A stretch of DNA of 32,220 bases from Acidimicrobiia bacterium (GTDB taxonomy: Bacteria; Actinomycetota; Acidimicrobiia; IMCC26256; PALSA-555): NCBI GenBank assembly GCA_009694435.1, contig SHUY01000014.1:1-32220 (forward strand), written 5' to 3'. A model generated the notes under the pieces. That model saw nothing but the letters and a program-made list of their open reading frames with translations, had not been told where the DNA came from and searched no databases. Each line of letters opens with the position of its first letter. Position 1 is the stretch's first letter. The position numbers and the translations under genes were made by a program. Below are positions 12,406-25,353 of the stretch, in pieces.

Positions 12406-12426
12406 TGGGGATAACTGTGGGGATAA
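12406..12426 (-). promoter_or_regulatory. Two tandem DnaA-box-like 9-mers near parS
   Basis: TGGGGATAA occurs at 12406-12414 and again at 12418-12426 (minus strand TTATCCCCA, one base from the classical TTATCCACA). The 12-bp period puts them roughly on one helical face. The same 9-mer occurs in the origin at 17744 and 17804, which supports it being this organism's DnaA box. Confidence 0.5.
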
Positions 12427-12502
12427 CTCCAATGATTCGGCTGGCCTTGGCGCCCAGTTCCTCGTGGACCAAGCTGATAGAAAACTGCCATCCCGAGATC
12501 TT

Positions 12503-12516
12503 GTTCCACGTGGAAC
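12503..12516. other. parS site 1
   Basis: GTTCCACGTGGAAC is a perfect 14-bp palindrome with the CACGTG core and GTT/AAC ends of bacterial parS (typical form GTTTCACGTGAAAC, with one symmetric change here: T to C on the left, A to G on the right). It lies upstream of parA within 6 kb of the origin, where ParB loading sites are expected. Confidence 0.92.
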
Positions 12517-12550
12517 CAGATTACGAAAAGCCGGCCAAATTGGTGGTCTT

Positions 12551-12564
12551 GTTCCACGTGGAAC
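12551..12564. other. parS site 2
   Basis: A second identical GTTCCACGTGGAAC palindrome, 48 bp downstream of the first, centre to centre. Both are preceded by CTT or TCTT. The second lies 12 bp from the stop codon of rsmG. Confidence 0.92.
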
Positions 12565-12575
12565 CCAGCCGCTTG

Positions 12576-16213: not shown

Positions 16214-16303
16214 ATGCAGTTTAACAAAAGGTGGGCCGAGACCCGCGAGGGTCGCGCTCAGGGAATACTTCGGTCGAAGCAGACCATAAGATGGCCGCGA
16301 TGA
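16214..16303 (+). CDS. Possible 29-codon leader ORF overlapping the dnaA start
   Basis: ATG at 16214 opens a 29-codon frame beginning MQFNKRWAETREGR and ending in TGA at 16301-16303. The TGA overlaps an in-frame dnaA ATG at 16300 as ATGA. GGGGGAA (16201-16207) lies six bases upstream and could serve as a ribosome binding site, whereas no dnaA start has a good one of its own. The arrangement is typical of translational coupling. It may be coincidence, because I know no conserved leader peptide here. No stalling motif is evident. Confidence 0.3.
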   Translation: MQFNKRWAETREGRAQGILRSKQTIRWPR

Positions 16304-17730
16304 CCGCAACTAACTCCGAAGCAGCGGGCACAAACGCTGGTGACGGTAGCGACGAAACCGCCAATCGAATTTGGGAGCAATCCGCCCGTAGGTTGCGAGC
16401 AGAATTGGCCGACGCCACTTGGCACACTTGGTTTCAAGGAGTAAAGGCCGTTCGGTTTGAAAACGGCACACTTGTTTTGTCAACACCGAACAGCATTTCG
16501 GCTGACCGCATTCGGTCCAACTATCGTCCGATGTTGATCGACGCCGTCGCAACCGCCGCCGGCGAACAAGTCGAGGTGGAGTTGATAACCGAACTCAACC
16601 CCGAACCAGATTTCTTCGACCCAAAACCTTCAGTTCCTGAAACTGCGAGTGCCGCGAGTGCCGCGAGTGCGCGCGGGTCGGAGTTGCCTACCGGGACTCT
16701 CAACCCGCGCTACACCTTCGACGCGTTTGTTATTGGTTCGGGAAACCGTTTTGCTCACGCCGCGGCCCTGTCGGTCGCAGAAGCTCCCGCATCGGGCTAC
16801 AACCCGCTTTTTATTTACGGCCCCGCCGGACTAGGAAAAACCCACCTATTACACGCTATTGGCCACTACGTACATAACCTCTACCCAAAAAAACGGGTGC
16901 GCTATGTGACCACCGAGGCAATGATGAACGATTTTGTTGAAGCTATTCGCGATCGCGCTCGTATGGCGACATTTAAGCGCAACATTCGCGAACTCGACAT
17001 ACTTTTAATTGACGACATTCAGTTTCTTGAACGCAGCCAAGAACTGCAAGAGGAATTTTTCCACACTTTTAATCACGTGCACGGCGCGAGCGGACAAATT
17101 GTCATCTCGTCCGACCGCACCCCGAAGTCAATCGCTACGCTTGAAGACCGCTTACGCACGCGTTTTGAGTGGGGTTTAATTACCGACGTTCAACCGCCTG
17201 AATTTGAGACCCGTTTGGCAATTTTACGCAAAAAGGCTGAAGCGGATCACCTCGGGCACATTCCCGACGAGGTAATGGATTTCATCGCGAGCAACATCAA
17301 AGAAAACATTCGTGAACTTGAAGGCGCATTAATCAGGATCTCGGCTTACGGGAGCCTTAATCAATCTCCTTTGTCGGCCGAAGTCGCGAAGTCGGTGCTA
17401 GCCGATATTTTGCCGAGCACCAAACTGCGCGAAGTAACGGCTGCCTTGGTGTTGGAGGAAACCGCGCTCATGTTTGGCTGGGAAGTGGCCGACCTGTGCG
17501 GTCGCAGCCGGCGCCGACCGCTAGTCGTGGCTCGACAAACCGGGATGTACGTCATGCGCGAGATGACCGACTTCAGTTACCCCCGCATCGCCGACGCCTT
17601 CGGCGGGAGAGACCACACCACCGTGATGTACGCCGTTGACAAAATTCGCCGCGAGATGGGTGAGCGGCACACCACCTTTGAACAGGTCAATGAGCTGATC
17701 GCTCGTATCCGCCTGGGAAGTGATACGTGA
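16291..17730 (+). CDS. dnaA: Chromosomal replication initiator DnaA
   Basis: ATP-dependent initiator that binds DnaA boxes at oriC, opens the duplex and recruits the helicase. From ATG at 16291 it has 479 residues. Domain I is at about 15-90 (IWEQSARRLRAELADATWHTW). Domain II is a short low-complexity linker built partly from three tandem 9-bp GCGAGTGCS units (16645-16671). The AAA+ domain III has Walker A GPAGLGKT at 177-184, Walker B LLIDDIQF from 238, and sensor/arginine-finger segments SSDRTPKSIATLEDRLRTRF. Domain IV carries the signature GGRDHTTVMYAVDKI from about 438. The start is ambiguous: GTG at 16231, ATG at 16291 and ATG at 16300 are all in frame and none has a strong Shine-Dalgarno. 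The last overlaps the stop of a leader ORF. The origin lies just downstream. Confidence 0.96.
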   Translation: MAAMTATNSEAAGTNAGDGSDETANRIWEQSARRLRAELADATWHTWFQGVKAVRFENGTLVLSTPNSISADRIRSNYRPMLIDAVATAAGEQVEVELITELNPEPDFFDPKPSVPETASAASAASARGSELPTGTLNPRYTFDAFVIGSGNRFAHAAALSVAEAPASGYNPLFIYGPAGLGKTHLLHAIGHYVHNLYPKKRVRYVTTEAMMNDFVEAIRDRARMATFKRNIRELDILLIDDIQFLERSQELQEEFFHTFNHVHGASGQIVISSDRTPKSIATLEDRLRTRFEWGLITDVQPPEFETRLAILRKKAEADHLGHIPDEVMDFIASNIKENIRELEGALIRISAYGSLNQSPLSAEVAKSVLADILPSTKLREVTAALVLEETALMFGWEVADLCGRSRRRPLVVARQTGMYVMREMTDFSYPRIADAFGGRDHTTVMYAVDKIRREMGERHTTFEQVNELIARIRLGSDT

Positions 17731-18043
17731 TTTCTTTCCTTCTTGGGGATAACGCCCCGAAAAACCTTTTATCAGCAACAAATAACCGGCTTGGGGATAG
17801 GGTTGGGGATAAGAAGGAAAAACCGTCTGGTTCTGGGGAGCAAGCCCATAAAAACAAAGGTGTTTTTTTGGGTCCTGGGGAGAGCAGGGGAAAACTCGTT
17901 ATGGCCAAACCTGCCCTGACCAGCACTTTTGAGTGGTTTTCCACAATCCCCAGCCCTACTACTACTACTACTTTATATTTAATAAAAGACCAAAAAATGG
18001 GGAAAACTCGCCCCTTTGCCAACCATCAAGAAACGGTGACCAA
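17731..18043. other. oriC: Replication origin oriC (dnaA-dnaN intergenic region)
   Basis: This 313-bp gap has no gene. Candidate DnaA boxes relative to TTATCCACA are TGGGGATAA at 17744-17752 and 17804-17812 (minus strand TTATCCCCA, one mismatch), TGGGGATAG at 17792-17800, TTTTCCACA at 17937-17945 (plus strand, one mismatch), and TGGGGAAAA at 17998-18006. Downstream of the 17937 box come a GC-rich spacer (17946-17955), five CTA triplets plus CTT (17956-17973), and an AT-rich tract (17972-17988). This matches the DnaA box - GC spacer - DnaA-trio - unwinding region order described for Bacillus subtilis oriC. Gene strands also switch around this neighbourhood, as expected for an origin. Confidence 0.85.
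17956..17973 (+). repeat. (CTA)5-CTT triplet tract, DnaA-trio-like
   Basis: Five perfect CTA triplets followed by CTT. The complementary strand reads 3'-GAT-5' repeated, the DnaA-trio consensus to which DnaA binds as single-stranded DNA. It is placed between a DnaA box (17937-17945) and the AT-rich tract at 17972-17988. Confidence 0.7.
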
Positions 18044-19141
18044 ATGAAGTTTCGTTGCGATCGGGATTCCCTAGCCGCGGCCGTGGGCACCGCCGCCCGA
18101 GCGGTGGCCTCCCGGGCCGGCGCACTACCGGTTTTATCGGGTTTACGGGTAACGCTCAGCCCCGGAAAAGTAGAGTTCACTGGATCAGACCTCGAGTTAA
18201 CAATCCGAGCGCAAACCGTGGCTGAAGTAGACGGAACCGGGTCGGTAGTACTAGTGGCCCGGCTTTTAGTGGACACTCTGGCCAAAATCACTGCCGACAC
18301 AGTCACGGTTGAAATAGGTGATGACCAAGCAATTATCGAGGCCGGACGGTTTCGTTCTGAAATCCGGACCTTAGCTGCGGGCGATTTTCCTCAACTTCCC
18401 GAAGCCGAAGGCGAACCGGTGGTTGTGTCCGGGCCCCCAATGGCCGAAGGCTTGCGCCAAGTGGTGCCGGCGGCATCGCGAGACGACGCTCGGCCAATAC
18501 TCACCGGGGTTTTACTAGCCGCAACCGAAACTGGCTTAAGACTAGTAGCGACCGACTCCTACCGACTCGCAGTTAGAGATCTGCCTGGGGTTTCTTTACT
18601 GACCGGAGACAAAAAAGTTTTGGTGGGGGCCAAAGGTTTGGGCGAGTTGCAAAAAATGATCGGCGAAAGTGACGTCGAAGTTTTTTTAAGCGACCGCTAC
18701 GTCGTTTTTCGGGTTCCCGGCGCCGAACTAACCGCCCGCTTAATTGAAGGTGAATTTCCTAACTATTCTCAACTAATTCCCGACGAGTACCCCAACTGCC
18801 TAACCGTGGGGCGCGACCTTTTAGCTTCGGCGGTCGAGCGCGTAAGTTTGGTGGGGGGGACCAGCCGCGACTCCGCCCCAATTCGGTTGGCAATGACTTC
18901 TGATGGTTTAGAACTTTCTGCCACCGCCACCGACATCGGCCAGTCGTTTGAACCGGTCGAGGCGCAATATTCAGGGACCGACGTAACCATGGCCTTTAAC
19001 GCGCGCTTTCTTCTCGACGGCGTAGAGGCCGCCGGCGCCGAACAAGTGACCATTGAAACCGTAGACCCACTAAAGCCCGCGGTTTTGCGAGGCGGAACAA
19101 AAGAATTTCTTTATCTTTTGATGCCGGTTCGAATCACCTAA
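18044..19141 (+). CDS. dnaN: DNA polymerase III beta subunit (sliding clamp)
   Basis: Ring-shaped processivity clamp of the replicative polymerase; also binds repair factors. From ATG at 18044 the protein is 365 residues, the normal length, and begins MKFRCDRDSLAAAVG. The frame stays open for 37 codons upstream, but these include a tyrosine run encoded by the CTA repeats of oriC and have no family similarity, so the upstream start is rejected. Three clamp domains are recognisable: ALPVLSGLRVTLSPGKVEFTG in the first, ILTGVLLAATETGLRLVATD in the second, and the C-terminal MPVRIT where the clamp-loader groove residues end. A weak GGTGA lies upstream. The next gene, recF, starts 7 bp after the stop. 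Confidence 0.96.
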   Translation: MKFRCDRDSLAAAVGTAARAVASRAGALPVLSGLRVTLSPGKVEFTGSDLELTIRAQTVAEVDGTGSVVLVARLLVDTLAKITADTVTVEIGDDQAIIEAGRFRSEIRTLAAGDFPQLPEAEGEPVVVSGPPMAEGLRQVVPAASRDDARPILTGVLLAATETGLRLVATDSYRLAVRDLPGVSLLTGDKKVLVGAKGLGELQKMIGESDVEVFLSDRYVVFRVPGAELTARLIEGEFPNYSQLIPDEYPNCLTVGRDLLASAVERVSLVGGTSRDSAPIRLAMTSDGLELSATATDIGQSFEPVEAQYSGTDVTMAFNARFLLDGVEAAGAEQVTIETVDPLKPAVLRGGTKEFLYLLMPVRIT

Positions 19142-20777: not shown

Positions 20778-22685
20778 GTGGCAGCAACCTATAAAGCCAA
20801 AGACATTACGGTCCTAAAGGGCCTTGAACCGGTGCGGGAGCGGCCGGGGATGTATATCGGGTCCACGGGTATTTCTGGTTTGCACCACCTGGTTTACGAG
20901 GTGGTCGACAATGCGGTTGACGAGGCCATGGCGGGAGAAGCCACTCGAATAGACGTAACTCTCTTGGCCGACGGGGGGTGTCGGGTTAGCGACAACGGCC
21001 GCGGAATTCCGGTCGACCCTCACCCGGACGACCCCAAGAAGTCGGCCGCGGAAATCGTGCTAACCACTTTGCACGCCGGGGGAAAGTTTGGCGGCGAGGG
21101 CTACAAAATTTCCGGCGGCCTTCATGGAGTAGGGGTTTCTGTAGTCAACGCCTTGTCTTCACGGCTCGACCTCGAGATTCACCGCGACGGATCCAAGTGG
21201 ACCTTGTCGTTCAAAGAGGGGGGAAGCCCTATTGGCCGCATAAAGGAAGCGGGCCCATCTAAAAAGCGCGGGACCACGGTTACGTTTTGGCCCGACGCCA
21301 CCATTTTCGAAGAGATCGAATTTCGGGCGCAAACTCTTATTGAGCGCTTGCGGGAAATGGCTTTTCTTAATCGTGGTCTCGAGATCTGCTTTCTTGACGA
21401 ACGAACCGACCCAGTTCACGCCGAAACTTTCCACTTTTCTGGCGGGATCATTGATTTTGTAAAACACCTAAACGGCCCTAAAGATCCGCTCTTTAAAAAA
21501 GTCGTTGCGTTCGTCGAAACGACCGACAACTCCGAAGTAGATGTTGCCATGCAGTGGAATACGGGCTATCACGAAGGAATTCACTCGTTTGCTAATAACA
21601 TCGCCACCACTGAAGGCGGCATGCACGAAGAAGGTTTTAAAAAAGCATTAACTAACGCAATTAATAAGTACGCCAAAAGTAAAGGTCAGTTAAAAGAAAA
21701 TGACGACAACATTGTCGGCGAAGACATTCGCGAAGGGCTCACGGCGATTATTTCGGTAAAGTTGCGGTCCCCTCAGTTTGAAGGGCAAACGAAAACTAAA
21801 CTGGGCAACACCGAGATGCGCTCTCTGGTGGAAAAAGCCACCAACGATAAGTTTGGCCAGTGGTTGGAGCAAAACCCCTCCGAGGGAAGAGCCATCGTGC
21901 AAAAAACCCTTTTGGCCGCTCGCGCCCGTCAGGCCGCTCGCCAAGCCCGCGACTTGACTCGCCGAAAGTCATTGCTGGAGAGCGCGGCCATGCCTGGGAA
22001 ACTGGCCGACTGCTCATCAAAAAATCCGGAAGAATGCGAGCTCTTCATCGTTGAGGGAGACAGCGCGGGCGGGTCGGCCAAGCGGGCGCGCGATCCTCGC
22101 ACTCAAGCGATTTTGCCCATTCGAGGGAAGATTCTCAACGTCGAACGGGCCCGGCTCGACAAGATGCTCAAAAACGAAGAAATCCAAACTCTCATCCAAG
22201 CCATTGGGGGTGGAGTGGGCGACGAGTTTGATAGCGAAAAAGTTCGCTATCACCGAGTGGTGATCATGGTTGACGCCGACGTTGATGGAAGTCACATCCG
22301 CACACTGCTGCTGACGTTCTTTTACCGCCAACTCCCCGAATTGGTTTTACGAGGCCGGGTTTATTTAGCCCAGCCCCCGCTATACCGAGCCGACCTAGGA
22401 AAAGAGCGACATTACCTTAAGGACGACGTGGCGTTGCGCGAGTTTGAAACTAGCCACAAAGGCCGCAACGTCGAAGTAAATCGCTTTAAGGGTTTAGGAG
22501 AAATGGACTGGGAAGAATTGGGCTCAACCACTATGAACCTAGCCAGCCGCACGCTTCTGCAAGTAACCGCGGCCGACGCGGCCATCGCCGACGAGATTTT
22601 TTCTACCCTTATGGGCGATGACGTTGAGGTGCGGAAAAAGTTTATTCAGGAAAATGCTAAAGACGTGAGGTTTATTGATGCCTAA
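20778..22685 (+). CDS. gyrB: DNA gyrase subunit B
   Basis: ATPase subunit of gyrase, which introduces negative supercoils. The GHKL ATPase domain has YEVVDNAVDEAMAG, DNGRGIPVDPHP and GGLHGVGVSVVNALS. The TOPRIM domain has EGDSAGGSAKRARD with the metal-binding Glu, and MVDADVDGSHIRTLLLTFFYR with the DxD pair. The C-terminus carries RFKGLGEMDWEELGSTTM. The length of 635 residues (from GTG at 20778) is standard for a gyrase B without the Gram-negative insert. GTG at 20769 is also possible, but the GAAAGG at 20762-20767 would then be only one base away, so 20778 is preferred. The end overlaps the gyrA start by 8 bp, so both subunits are co-translated. Confidence 0.96.
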   Translation: MAATYKAKDITVLKGLEPVRERPGMYIGSTGISGLHHLVYEVVDNAVDEAMAGEATRIDVTLLADGGCRVSDNGRGIPVDPHPDDPKKSAAEIVLTTLHAGGKFGGEGYKISGGLHGVGVSVVNALSSRLDLEIHRDGSKWTLSFKEGGSPIGRIKEAGPSKKRGTTVTFWPDATIFEEIEFRAQTLIERLREMAFLNRGLEICFLDERTDPVHAETFHFSGGIIDFVKHLNGPKDPLFKKVVAFVETTDNSEVDVAMQWNTGYHEGIHSFANNIATTEGGMHEEGFKKALTNAINKYAKSKGQLKENDDNIVGEDIREGLTAIISVKLRSPQFEGQTKTKLGNTEMRSLVEKATNDKFGQWLEQNPSEGRAIVQKTLLAARARQAARQARDLTRRKSLLESAAMPGKLADCSSKNPEECELFIVEGDSAGGSAKRARDPRTQAILPIRGKILNVERARLDKMLKNEEIQTLIQAIGGGVGDEFDSEKVRYHRVVIMVDADVDGSHIRTLLLTFFYRQLPELVLRGRVYLAQPPLYRADLGKERHYLKDDVALREFETSHKGRNVEVNRFKGLGEMDWEELGSTTMNLASRTLLQVTAADAAIADEIFSTLMGDDVEVRKKFIQENAKDVRFIDA

Positions 22686-25353
22686 GCCGCCGGCCAAGAA
22701 AACTGCGGCCAAGAAAACTGCGGCCAAACCGCCTGCTAAAGCTGCAGCCAAGAAAGCTGCGGCCAAGAAAACTGCGGCCAAGAAAACTGCGGCCAAGAAA
22801 ACTGCGGCCAAACCGCCTGCTACCACTGCGGCCAAACCGCCTGCTACCACTGCGGCCAAACCGCCTGCTACCACTGCGGCCAAACCGTCCGCCGCCACCG
22901 CGCTGGCTTTGGCCGGCGGAGACATTCAGCCCATAGAGATTCAAGACGAAATGGAACGCTCGTTCTTGGATTACGCGATGTCGGTAATTACCGCGCGCGC
23001 CCTTCCCGACGCGCGCGACGGACTCAAGCCGGTGCACCGCCGCATTCTTTATTCGATGTACGACTCCGGCACCCGTCCCGATCGCAAGCACCGCAAGTCA
23101 GCCCAGACGGTTGGTGACGTTATGGCTCGGTTTCATCCTCACGGCGACACCGCTATTTATGACGCCATGGCCCGCATGGCGCAAGATTTTTCTCTGCGCT
23201 TTCCCCTCGTTGACGGTCACGGAAACTTCGGCTCGCCCGACCCCAACGATCGCCCCGCGGCGGCTCGGTACACCGAGGCCCGATTGGCCTTACTGGCTAT
23301 GGAGATGCTGGGTGAAATCGACGAAGAGACGGTGGACTTCATTCCTACTTATGACGGCGAGAACGAAGAACCCACCGTGTTGCCCGCCCGTTTCCCCAAC
23401 CTGTTGGTCAACGGAGTGGGGGGAATCGCCGTGGGTATGGCCACCAACATTCCTCCTCACAACCTGGGCGAAGTGATTGATGCGGTTATTTACATGATTG
23501 ACAACCCCGAAGCCAAAGTGGCCGATCTTTTAAAGATCGTTAAAGGCCCCGACTTCCCCACCGGCGCGTTTATTTTGGGTAAAACGGGCATTAAAGACGC
23601 GTACACCACCGGTCGAGGGTCAATCAAGCTTCGGGCAACGCTCGACGTTGAAGAGGGCGCGCGCGACGGAAAGCGAATTGTTATTACGCAGGTTCCGTAT
23701 CAGACGTCAGTCGAGGCCATCGGCCAGCGTATAGCCGAGCTAGTTAACGATCGAAAACTTGACGGTATCCGTGACGTTCGCAACGAGTCGGCCGGAGTAA
23801 CCAACCGTCTGGTAATCGAGTTACGTAAGGCCGCCAACGTAAATGTTGTAATTAACCAACTTTATAAATTAACTCAACTACAAAGCACTTTTTCGGTGAA
23901 TATGTTGGCCTTGGTCGACGGGGTTCCGCGCCTGCTTACGCTTGATCAATCAATCCGAGTTTACCTTGAGCACCAAGTCGAAGTAGTAACTCGGCGCACG
24001 CAGTATCGCCTGCGTCGGGCCCAAGAGCGTGAGCACATCGTCGAAGGATTGGTAAAAGCACTCGCGGCCATTGATGCGATCATCAAACTCATCAAAGCCG
24101 CCGCCGACGTAGAGGCCGCCCGTAAGGGTCTTATGGCCAAGCCGTTCGCTTTTTCAGAAATTCAAGCGAACTACATCTTGGATATGCAACTACGCCGACT
24201 TACTCAACTAGAAGGCGAGAAGCTGCGTAAGGAACTGGCCGAGCTCCAAGAACAGATCAAGGCCTTGCAGTCAATTTTGCAGAGCAAGGAAGAACTTGAA
24301 GGAGTCATAAAAACCGAATTAATCGCCACCAAGGAAAAATTCGCCAACCCTCGGCGAACGAAATTAATTGCCGACACCGGTGAACTCGATGTTCTTGATT
24401 TGATTGACGACGAAGAAGTAGTCGTGGTGTTAACCAAGAACGGCTACATCAAGACCGTGGCCGCCGACTCGTTCCGCCGCCAAGGTCGCGGTGGTCGTGG
24501 GGTGCGGGGCAGCAAGTTGGGCGACGGCGACTATGTAGCCAACCTCCTTACCACCACCATGCATTCGTACTTATTGATGTTCTCTAATCGGGGCAAGGTT
24601 TACCGCATACGGGCTCACGAGATCCCTATGCAGGCGCGCACTGCGCGCGGCACCGCTTTGGTCAACCTGGTTTCTCTGGCCGCCGGCGAACAGATCGAAG
24701 CGGTAATCGACACCCGCACTTACGAAGAGGGTATGTACCTGATCTTCGCTACCCGCGGGGGACTAGTTAAGAAAACCAAGATGTCGGAGTACGACTCTTC
24801 GCTCCGCAACGGCCTTATCGCCCTAAATCTCAATCGAGGCGACGAGTTGGTCCAGGTTATTCAAACGAACGGCAAGAGCGACTTGATGATGACCACCAAG
24901 AACGGACAGACCATTCGTTTTGCCGAAGAAGATATCCGCCCCACCGGGCGCGCTTCAGCGGGGGTGCACGGAATGAAATTGCGCGAAGACGACGCGGTGG
25001 TTTCTTGTGACTCCTATCGCGAAGGGTCGGTTATGTTATTCATCAGCGCCAGCGGGCACGGCAAGCGCACCAAGGCGGACGCTTTCCATCGCCAAAATCG
25101 CGGCGGACAAGGCGTGCGGGGAATGAAGATCACCGAAACCCGAGGCCAAGTGGTGGCCGCGTTTGCGGTGACCGAAGAAGACGAAATCATGGTGTTCTCG
25201 TCGGGCGGTAACATTCTTAAGATGCCCGCCGCCGACGTTTCTGTCCAGGGTCGTGACGCCACCGGCGTGCGGGTCACTCGGTTAGCCAAAGGTGAATCGG
25301 TGGTAGCAGTAGCACCCGCGCTAGACCATGACGGATCGCCGGAGACAAGCTAA
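22678..25353 (+). CDS. gyrA: DNA gyrase subunit A with Lys/Ala/Pro-rich N-terminal tail
   Basis: DNA-breaking and DNA-wrapping subunit of gyrase. Canonical GyrA begins near residue 83 ([20 protein letters not shown]). It has the winged-helix region [19 protein letters not shown] with Thr158 and Asp162 at the classical quinolone-resistance positions, and the catalytic Tyr198 in ARYTEARL. The coiled-coil region is [20 protein letters not shown]. The C-terminal beta-pinwheel carries a GyrA box (QGRGGRGV). Residues 1-81 form an extra tail with 19 lysines and no acidic residue, made of AKKTA units and three AKPPATTA units encoded by perfect DNA repeats (22693-22878). ATG at 22678 is in the normal overlap with gyrB. 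A TTG at 22909 could start a tail-less form but has no ribosome binding site. Total length is 891 residues. Confidence 0.95.
22693..22878 (+). repeat. In-frame 15-bp and 24-bp tandem repeats in gyrA
   Basis: The 15-mer GCCAAGAAAACTGCG occurs at 22693, 22708, 22762, 22777 and 22792, with a one-base variant at 22747. A 24-bp unit (8 codons, AKPPATTA) occurs three times without change at 22807, 22831 and 22855. All units are multiples of three and keep the gyrA frame. The identity between copies indicates recent slippage or recombination, and copy number may vary between strains. Confidence 0.95.

Follow-up and report, generated by a model that had tools for sequence, protein, structure and literature searches.

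The gap between dnaA and dnaN in this stretch of actinobacterial DNA contains an almost perfect run of CTA triplets, which raises the question of whether this is the place where the chromosome origin opens. The earlier note on this DNA had read it as a DnaA-trio unwinding element with the order and polarity of the one in Bacillus subtilis. Comparison with relatives and GC skew supported this reading, and we conclude that positions 17937-17987 are very probably the basal unwinding system (BUS) of this oriC, one that works with DnaA-trios.

The window, i.e., the whole stretch of 32,220 nucleotides that was analysed, carries yidC, jag, an rsmG-like gene and a parA-like gene in its left part and dnaA, dnaN, recF, a DUF721-family gene, gyrB and gyrA in its right part (Table 1; the start codon of dnaA is that of the open reading frame list). 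Fifteen DnaA boxes with at most one mismatch to TTATCC[AC]CA were found in the whole window, five of them inside the 313-bp gap. The cumulative GC skew of the window had its minimum at about 16-18 kb with a slight rise after it, a weak local signal; the genome is in 93 contigs, so its own skew is visible only locally. In a complete, single-contig genome of the same order (G026), dnaA is located at 0.4-1.9 kb, and the sign of the skew switches both at this end and at the antipode: it was positive in 10/10 samples between 0 and 1.19 Mb and negative in 10/10 samples from 1.30 Mb on. The element thus lies where a chromosome origin is expected, in a dnaA-dnaN gap with a box cluster and, in this relative, a skew switch at dnaA, and the skew gave no reason to place the origin elsewhere. 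Its position as an origin follows from gene order and the relative's GC skew; its anatomy, its non-randomness and the conservation of its order, polarity and spacing are read from sequence.

Table 1 Features of the dnaA-dnaN region, with positions in the window
Feature	Coordinates	Strand	Basis
dnaA, replication initiator	16231..17730	+	TIGR00362, E 6e-147; family match from residue 48
dnaA-dnaN intergenic gap, oriC, 313 bp	17731..18043		DnaA box cluster
Upstream three-box DnaA cluster: TTATCCCCA 17744, CTATCCCCA 17792, TTATCCCCA 17804	17744..17812	-	box scan
CTGACCAGC, element kept at a fixed distance in Actinobacteria; its core CAGC lies at -19 relative to the first TCCACA	17916..17924	+	relatives
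DnaA box 1, TTTTCCACA	17937..17945	+	direct reading; kept in relatives
DnaA box 2, CAATCCCCA, CCCC-type	17944..17952	+	direct reading; in relatives, TCC[AC]CA pairs with 7-bp spacing
GCC, true box-to-trio spacer	17953..17955		4 nt in most relatives
DnaA-trios, (CTA)5 (17956-17970) and CTT (17971-17973) on the + strand = 3'-GAT-5' repeats on the - strand, predicted DnaA-bound	17956..17973	-	
All-A/T tract, 16 bp, predicted to open next	17972..17987		direct reading
Downstream DnaA box TTTTCCCCA	17998..18006	-	box scan
dnaN, DNA polymerase III beta clamp	18044..19141	+	TIGR00663, E 7e-77, translated from 18047

Some further observations concern the surroundings of the origin. Between the parA-like and rsmG-like genes, we found two parS-like sites TGTTCCACGTGGAACC (12502-12517 and 12550-12565), each with three mismatches to TGTTTCACGTGAAACA; two such sites occurred in 0/100 shuffles of the window. 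Sites of this kind are typical of origin regions. The same intergenic stretch has two perfect TTATCCCCA boxes on the minus strand (12406-12426), whose starts are 12 bp apart with 3 bp between the 9-mers, a spacing preferred by E. coli DnaA; they are a possible DnaA-regulated or titration site. The gyrA reading frame starts (region 22675-22925) with about 80 residues of lysine/alanine/proline repeats, encoded by tandem DNA repeats (22691-22887), and the GyrA family match begins at residue 84, after this stretch, which looks like an added histone-like tail.

Direct reading of the gap confirmed the order box, (CTA)5-CTT and A/T tract at the coordinates given previously. However, what had been described as a 10-bp GC-rich spacer, ATCCCCAGCC at 17946-17955, is mostly a second DnaA box followed by GCC, since relatives read ATCCACA and about 4 nt at this place. 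As 9-mers, box 1 and box 2 share 2 bp, and their TCC[AC]CA hexamers start 7 bp apart. Box 2 is of the CCCC type, as are the upstream boxes at 17744 and 17804. The A/T-rich tract, 16 bp without a single G or C in the window, is weaker in relatives.

A survey that predicts a BUS in 1755 of 2070 bacterial origins uses as its rule a box with at most two mismatches, a spacer of at most 16 bp and at least three NAN trios (PMC8287927). The window conforms to this rule: TTTTCCACA has one mismatch to TTATCCACA (two allowed) and is 10 bp away from the trios (0-16 bp allowed), and six NAN trios in a row read 3'-5' away from the box. GAT is the commonest trio in the survey, and tandem boxes, present here through CAATCCCCA, are its commonest arrangement (57%), although not an obligatory one. 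The spacer length in the survey peaks at 10-13 bp, and the sections consulted describe neither a clade-specific spacing of 7, 8 or 9 bp nor a loss of the middle adenine nor an upstream element. Triplet unwinding elements of this type are not confined to Firmicutes (PMC8287927, PMC12500396).

We compared the dnaA-dnaN gaps of 50 same-order genomes, that of the window among them, with those of 20 more from elsewhere in the class, allowing box spacings of 5 to 15 bp. Tandem boxes at 7 bp were present in 48/50 and 17/20 gaps, respectively (65/70), and one of the remaining five (G060) had boxes at 8 bp. Exact TCC[AC]CA pairs at 7 bp numbered 43 across 52 gaps, compared to a shuffle mean of 0.01. 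Of the 48 genomes of the order for which the call was confident, 40 had a box-to-trio spacer of 4 nt, the GCC of the window being one base shorter. The box-triplet spacing is therefore almost fixed and the arrangement is kept in relatives. The position tables omit one low call and one gap with none from the order, the same numbers from the other class genomes, G060, and 14 low calls and 20 gaps with none at the phylum level; L134, L135 and L145 (duplicates) and L219 (contig ends) were dropped. Each genus, if known, is represented by a single row, and the spacing calls for L054 and L036 are ambiguous.

A search for TCCACA-N1-4-TCCACA-N4-YTA in 296 genomes of the class gave 114 matches in 111 genomes (tallies counted by hand from the match rows), 106 of them at 7 bp, while the reversed pattern, used as a control with the same genomes, gave 10. 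One match (G032:C4) is off the dnaA contig and probably due to chance. The other 185 genomes, including that of the window, had no exact match, since in many of them a box is of the CCCC type or differs in another base. In a sample of 296 genomes from the phylum, 42 matches were found in 41 genomes (255 had none): the seven within the class were all at 7 bp, and among the 35 outside the class this spacing was not found (12 at 8 bp, 20 at 9 bp and 3 at 10 bp). Named Firmicutes had 8 bp and a four-base spacer in 17/27 gaps and named Actinobacteria 9 bp and a four-base spacer in 24/50; the commonest spacing was 8 in Firmicutes and 8-9 in other Actinobacteria. These counts indicate that box 2 and the first trio are separated by an approximately constant distance and that the distance between the boxes is clade-specific. 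With the strict scan, a confident element was detected in only 34/68 gaps outside the class. Four loci labelled Acidimicrobiales or Acidimicrobiaceae (L032, L034, L035 and L040) have the 7-bp arrangement, and the class sharing it is, as far as can be told, Acidimicrobiia. A contig labelled as a Bifidobacterium breve MAG (L037, 1-4025) also carries a 7-bp tandem-box origin like that of this class; the label may be a binning error.

The triplets themselves are conserved in register but not in number. The description of the CTA run as unusually perfect proved accurate, since five unbroken leading CTAs occur in 2/51 dnaA-dnaN gaps (the window and one relative) and four in 8/51. The count of perfect CTAs is not conserved. 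Among 48 genera with the 7-bp arrangement, the consensus bases C/T/A were counted 37/44/44 times in trio 1, 32/38/43 in trio 2, 39/23/26 in trio 3, 38/23/36 in trio 4 and 36/26/35 in trio 5. In trios 3-5 the middle base was T in 72/144 cases, i.e., in half of them, compared to 53/54 in 18 Firmicutes, and the first base was C in 113/144 and 35/54 cases, respectively (Fisher test, p about 4e-12 for the middle and 0.07 for the first base, values that are optimistic because the genomes are related). At least three consecutive NAN trios (NTN on the plus strand) at the canonical place were present in 29/52 gaps, including the window, and 23/52 had fewer. The published rule demands an adenine in the middle of every trio on the trio strand (PMC8287927); from the trio counts and these 23 gaps, we conclude that the register is kept but that this rule does not always hold.

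A second conserved feature is located upstream of box 1, where a CTGACC[TA]G[CG]-like sequence is common to relatives at a fixed distance of about 20 bp. Counted from the first TCCACA, C[AT]G[CG] begins at -19 in 35/48 class genera, the mean for the other 52 offsets being about 1. Among 20 extra class loci, 14 had a readable element, and 7 of these had C[AT]G[CG] at -19 (by eye), which is weaker than 35/48. In other Actinobacteria with 9-bp boxes, it was found at -18 in 13/22 unnamed and 11/24 named genomes and in additional ones at -17 and -19, and in 18 Firmicutes one had it at any of -17 to -20. The pattern was picked after viewing the first (class) set, and the 9-bp sets are outside that class. 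An AdpA box (TGGCSNGWWY) was rejected as its identity, with two mismatches for TGACCAGCAC in the window and four for TGACCTGCGA, the commonest form in relatives (by eye). A mycobacterial/Streptomyces IHF site is unlikely, as oriC specificity was absent in vitro (PMC10028186). A sigma-70 promoter was not found at the element, and the MtrA consensus GTCACAGCG fits only with a one-base gap (by eye). The DnaA-trio literature on Actinobacteria, Streptomyces and Mycobacterium included, covered in part and with few subscription journals, yielded no description of either this element or tandem boxes at 7 bp, and the titles of the literature on oriC in Acidimicrobiia indicated nothing on origins.

The DnaA of the window was aligned to B. 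subtilis DnaA of PDB 8btg, with residue roles taken from PMC10721633. E183, N187, I193, E228 and R264 of the trio-reading or oligomer set are identical, and I190V and R202K are replacements; the trio-capture residues N187, I190, I193, R202 and E228 and the arginine finger R264 thus read N, V, I, K, E and R, so that the set is chemically conserved. The B. subtilis DNA contacts K222, E223 and N196 are S, Q and R. The loss of the backbone contacts K222 and E223 was not counted as disqualifying because the accessible text does not claim them to be universal (PMC10721633). Among 99 DnaA C-termini, V441/Y450/A454 (SYP.IA) was found in 42 of 47 scored proteins from 7-bp genomes, and L/L/G in 30/30 scored from 9-bp and 21/22 scored from 8-bp genomes. 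These residues were nevertheless rejected as a specificity switch for box spacing, since L/L/G also occurs in seven additional genomes of the class with 7-bp boxes; they are a subclade marker. The distance from the arginine finger to GGRDHTT does not account for the spacing either, being 150-152 in every group.

Among the closest known systems is the BUS of B. subtilis (DnaA-box#6/#7 and DnaA-trios; PMC6669920, PMC10721633), with which the window shares tandem same-direction boxes, a short GC-rich spacer, 3'-GAT-5' trios, an A/T tract and the position beside dnaA. It differs in the 7-bp box distance (8 in most Firmicutes gaps), the CCCC-type box 2 and the three altered DNA contacts. The E. coli double boxes (PMC11317965) are similar in that a pair is needed for binding and a pair is present here, but E. 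coli DnaA prefers 2 or 3 bp between the 9-mers, whereas those in the window overlap. In the putative oriC of Kocuria rhizophila (PMC12500396), DnaA-trios were likewise annotated in an actinobacterial dnaA-dnaN gap, in the text available without comparative or functional analysis. In Mycobacterium leprae (L106), TTATCCACA-AGATCCACA-CCCT-TTAATACTGATACTA, a BUS-like site with 9-bp boxes, precedes dnaN, at a considerable distance from where opening was reported in M. tuberculosis. Judged by the genomes compared, the element of the window is a class-specific variant: its boxes are closer together by one base than those of most Firmicutes and by two than those of most other Actinobacteria in which a pair can be read, and it has the conserved upstream element in addition.

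By analogy with work on B. subtilis, we infer the steps of binding, oligomer formation and melting. Two DnaA molecules would dock via domain IV on the overlapping same-direction boxes and would load an ATP-DnaA oligomer onto the adjacent 3'-GAT-5' trio strand. Base capture in each trio would then separate the strands, and the bubble would extend into the A/T tract, where the helicase would be loaded. The exact melting point at about 17956-17990 is a prediction, since opening by M. tuberculosis DnaA in vitro maps elsewhere in the gap (PMC2607554).

Could the CTA run be a functionless product of chance or slippage, i.e., a microsatellite? Five perfect copies are shared by only 1/50 other gaps and the triplet number differs among close relatives, which speaks for this. 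However, (CTA)5 has a single match on either strand of the draft genome (1.77 Mb, 93 contigs, about 86% complete), at 17956, and a box with at most one mismatch followed within 0-16 nt by (CTA)3 or (CTA)5 was found in 0/20,000 dinucleotide-preserving shuffles of the 313-bp gap (5/20,000 for (CTA)2). Furthermore, the C.A register is in phase with the boxes over five triplets in 48 genera, and we give this explanation next to no weight. The tract could also be the dnaN promoter, with TATATT or TAATAA as the -10 hexamer, rather than an unwinding site; it is 57-107 bp ahead of the dnaN start and contains A/T-rich hexamers. As no sigma-70-like site was found in 17700-18120 and conservation peaks in the boxes and first trios instead of any -10 hexamer, we consider this highly unlikely, although promoter and unwinding roles are not mutually exclusive.

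Finally, boxes and trios may be a real DnaA site that serves for positioning only, with the first melting elsewhere in the gap. This is what the in vitro data on M. tuberculosis oriC suggest, where KMnO4 detected opening at -500 to -518 from dnaN, within an A+T-rich region (PMC2607554). Against this, about 285 bp separate the M. leprae BUS-like site from dnaN, and the oligonucleotide for boxes 8-9 of the same M. tuberculosis study can be read as a tandem of hexamers with 9-bp spacing and CCCT after it. Moreover, the dnaA end of the gap in the window has no CTA array. The opening position in M. tuberculosis and the equivalent place of this element are in conflict, and we regard a role limited to positioning as improbable.

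Assignment of 17937-17987 as a DnaA-trio BUS thus provides a precise opening-site prediction for the origins of a little-studied class, and a recognisable BUS spans many Actinobacteria, including relatives of Streptomyces and Mycobacterium, for which the unwinding site had been assigned to another place or not assigned. That the distal trios lose their middle base questions the NAN rule as a means of predicting trio elements. With its clade-specific values of 7, 8 or 9 bp, the box spacing offers a natural experiment in the way a pair of DnaA molecules is arranged ahead of melting. Tentatively, and with more doubt than confidence, we propose that CTGACC[TA]G[CG], about two turns upstream, serves as the docking site for a so far undescribed partner in the actinobacterial orisome (a non-DnaA protein or a special DnaA contact) and that, together with this, the box spacing is the clade-specific setting of the first two DnaA protomers before opening. 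The upstream element points to a component of actinobacterial replication initiation that may be undescribed.
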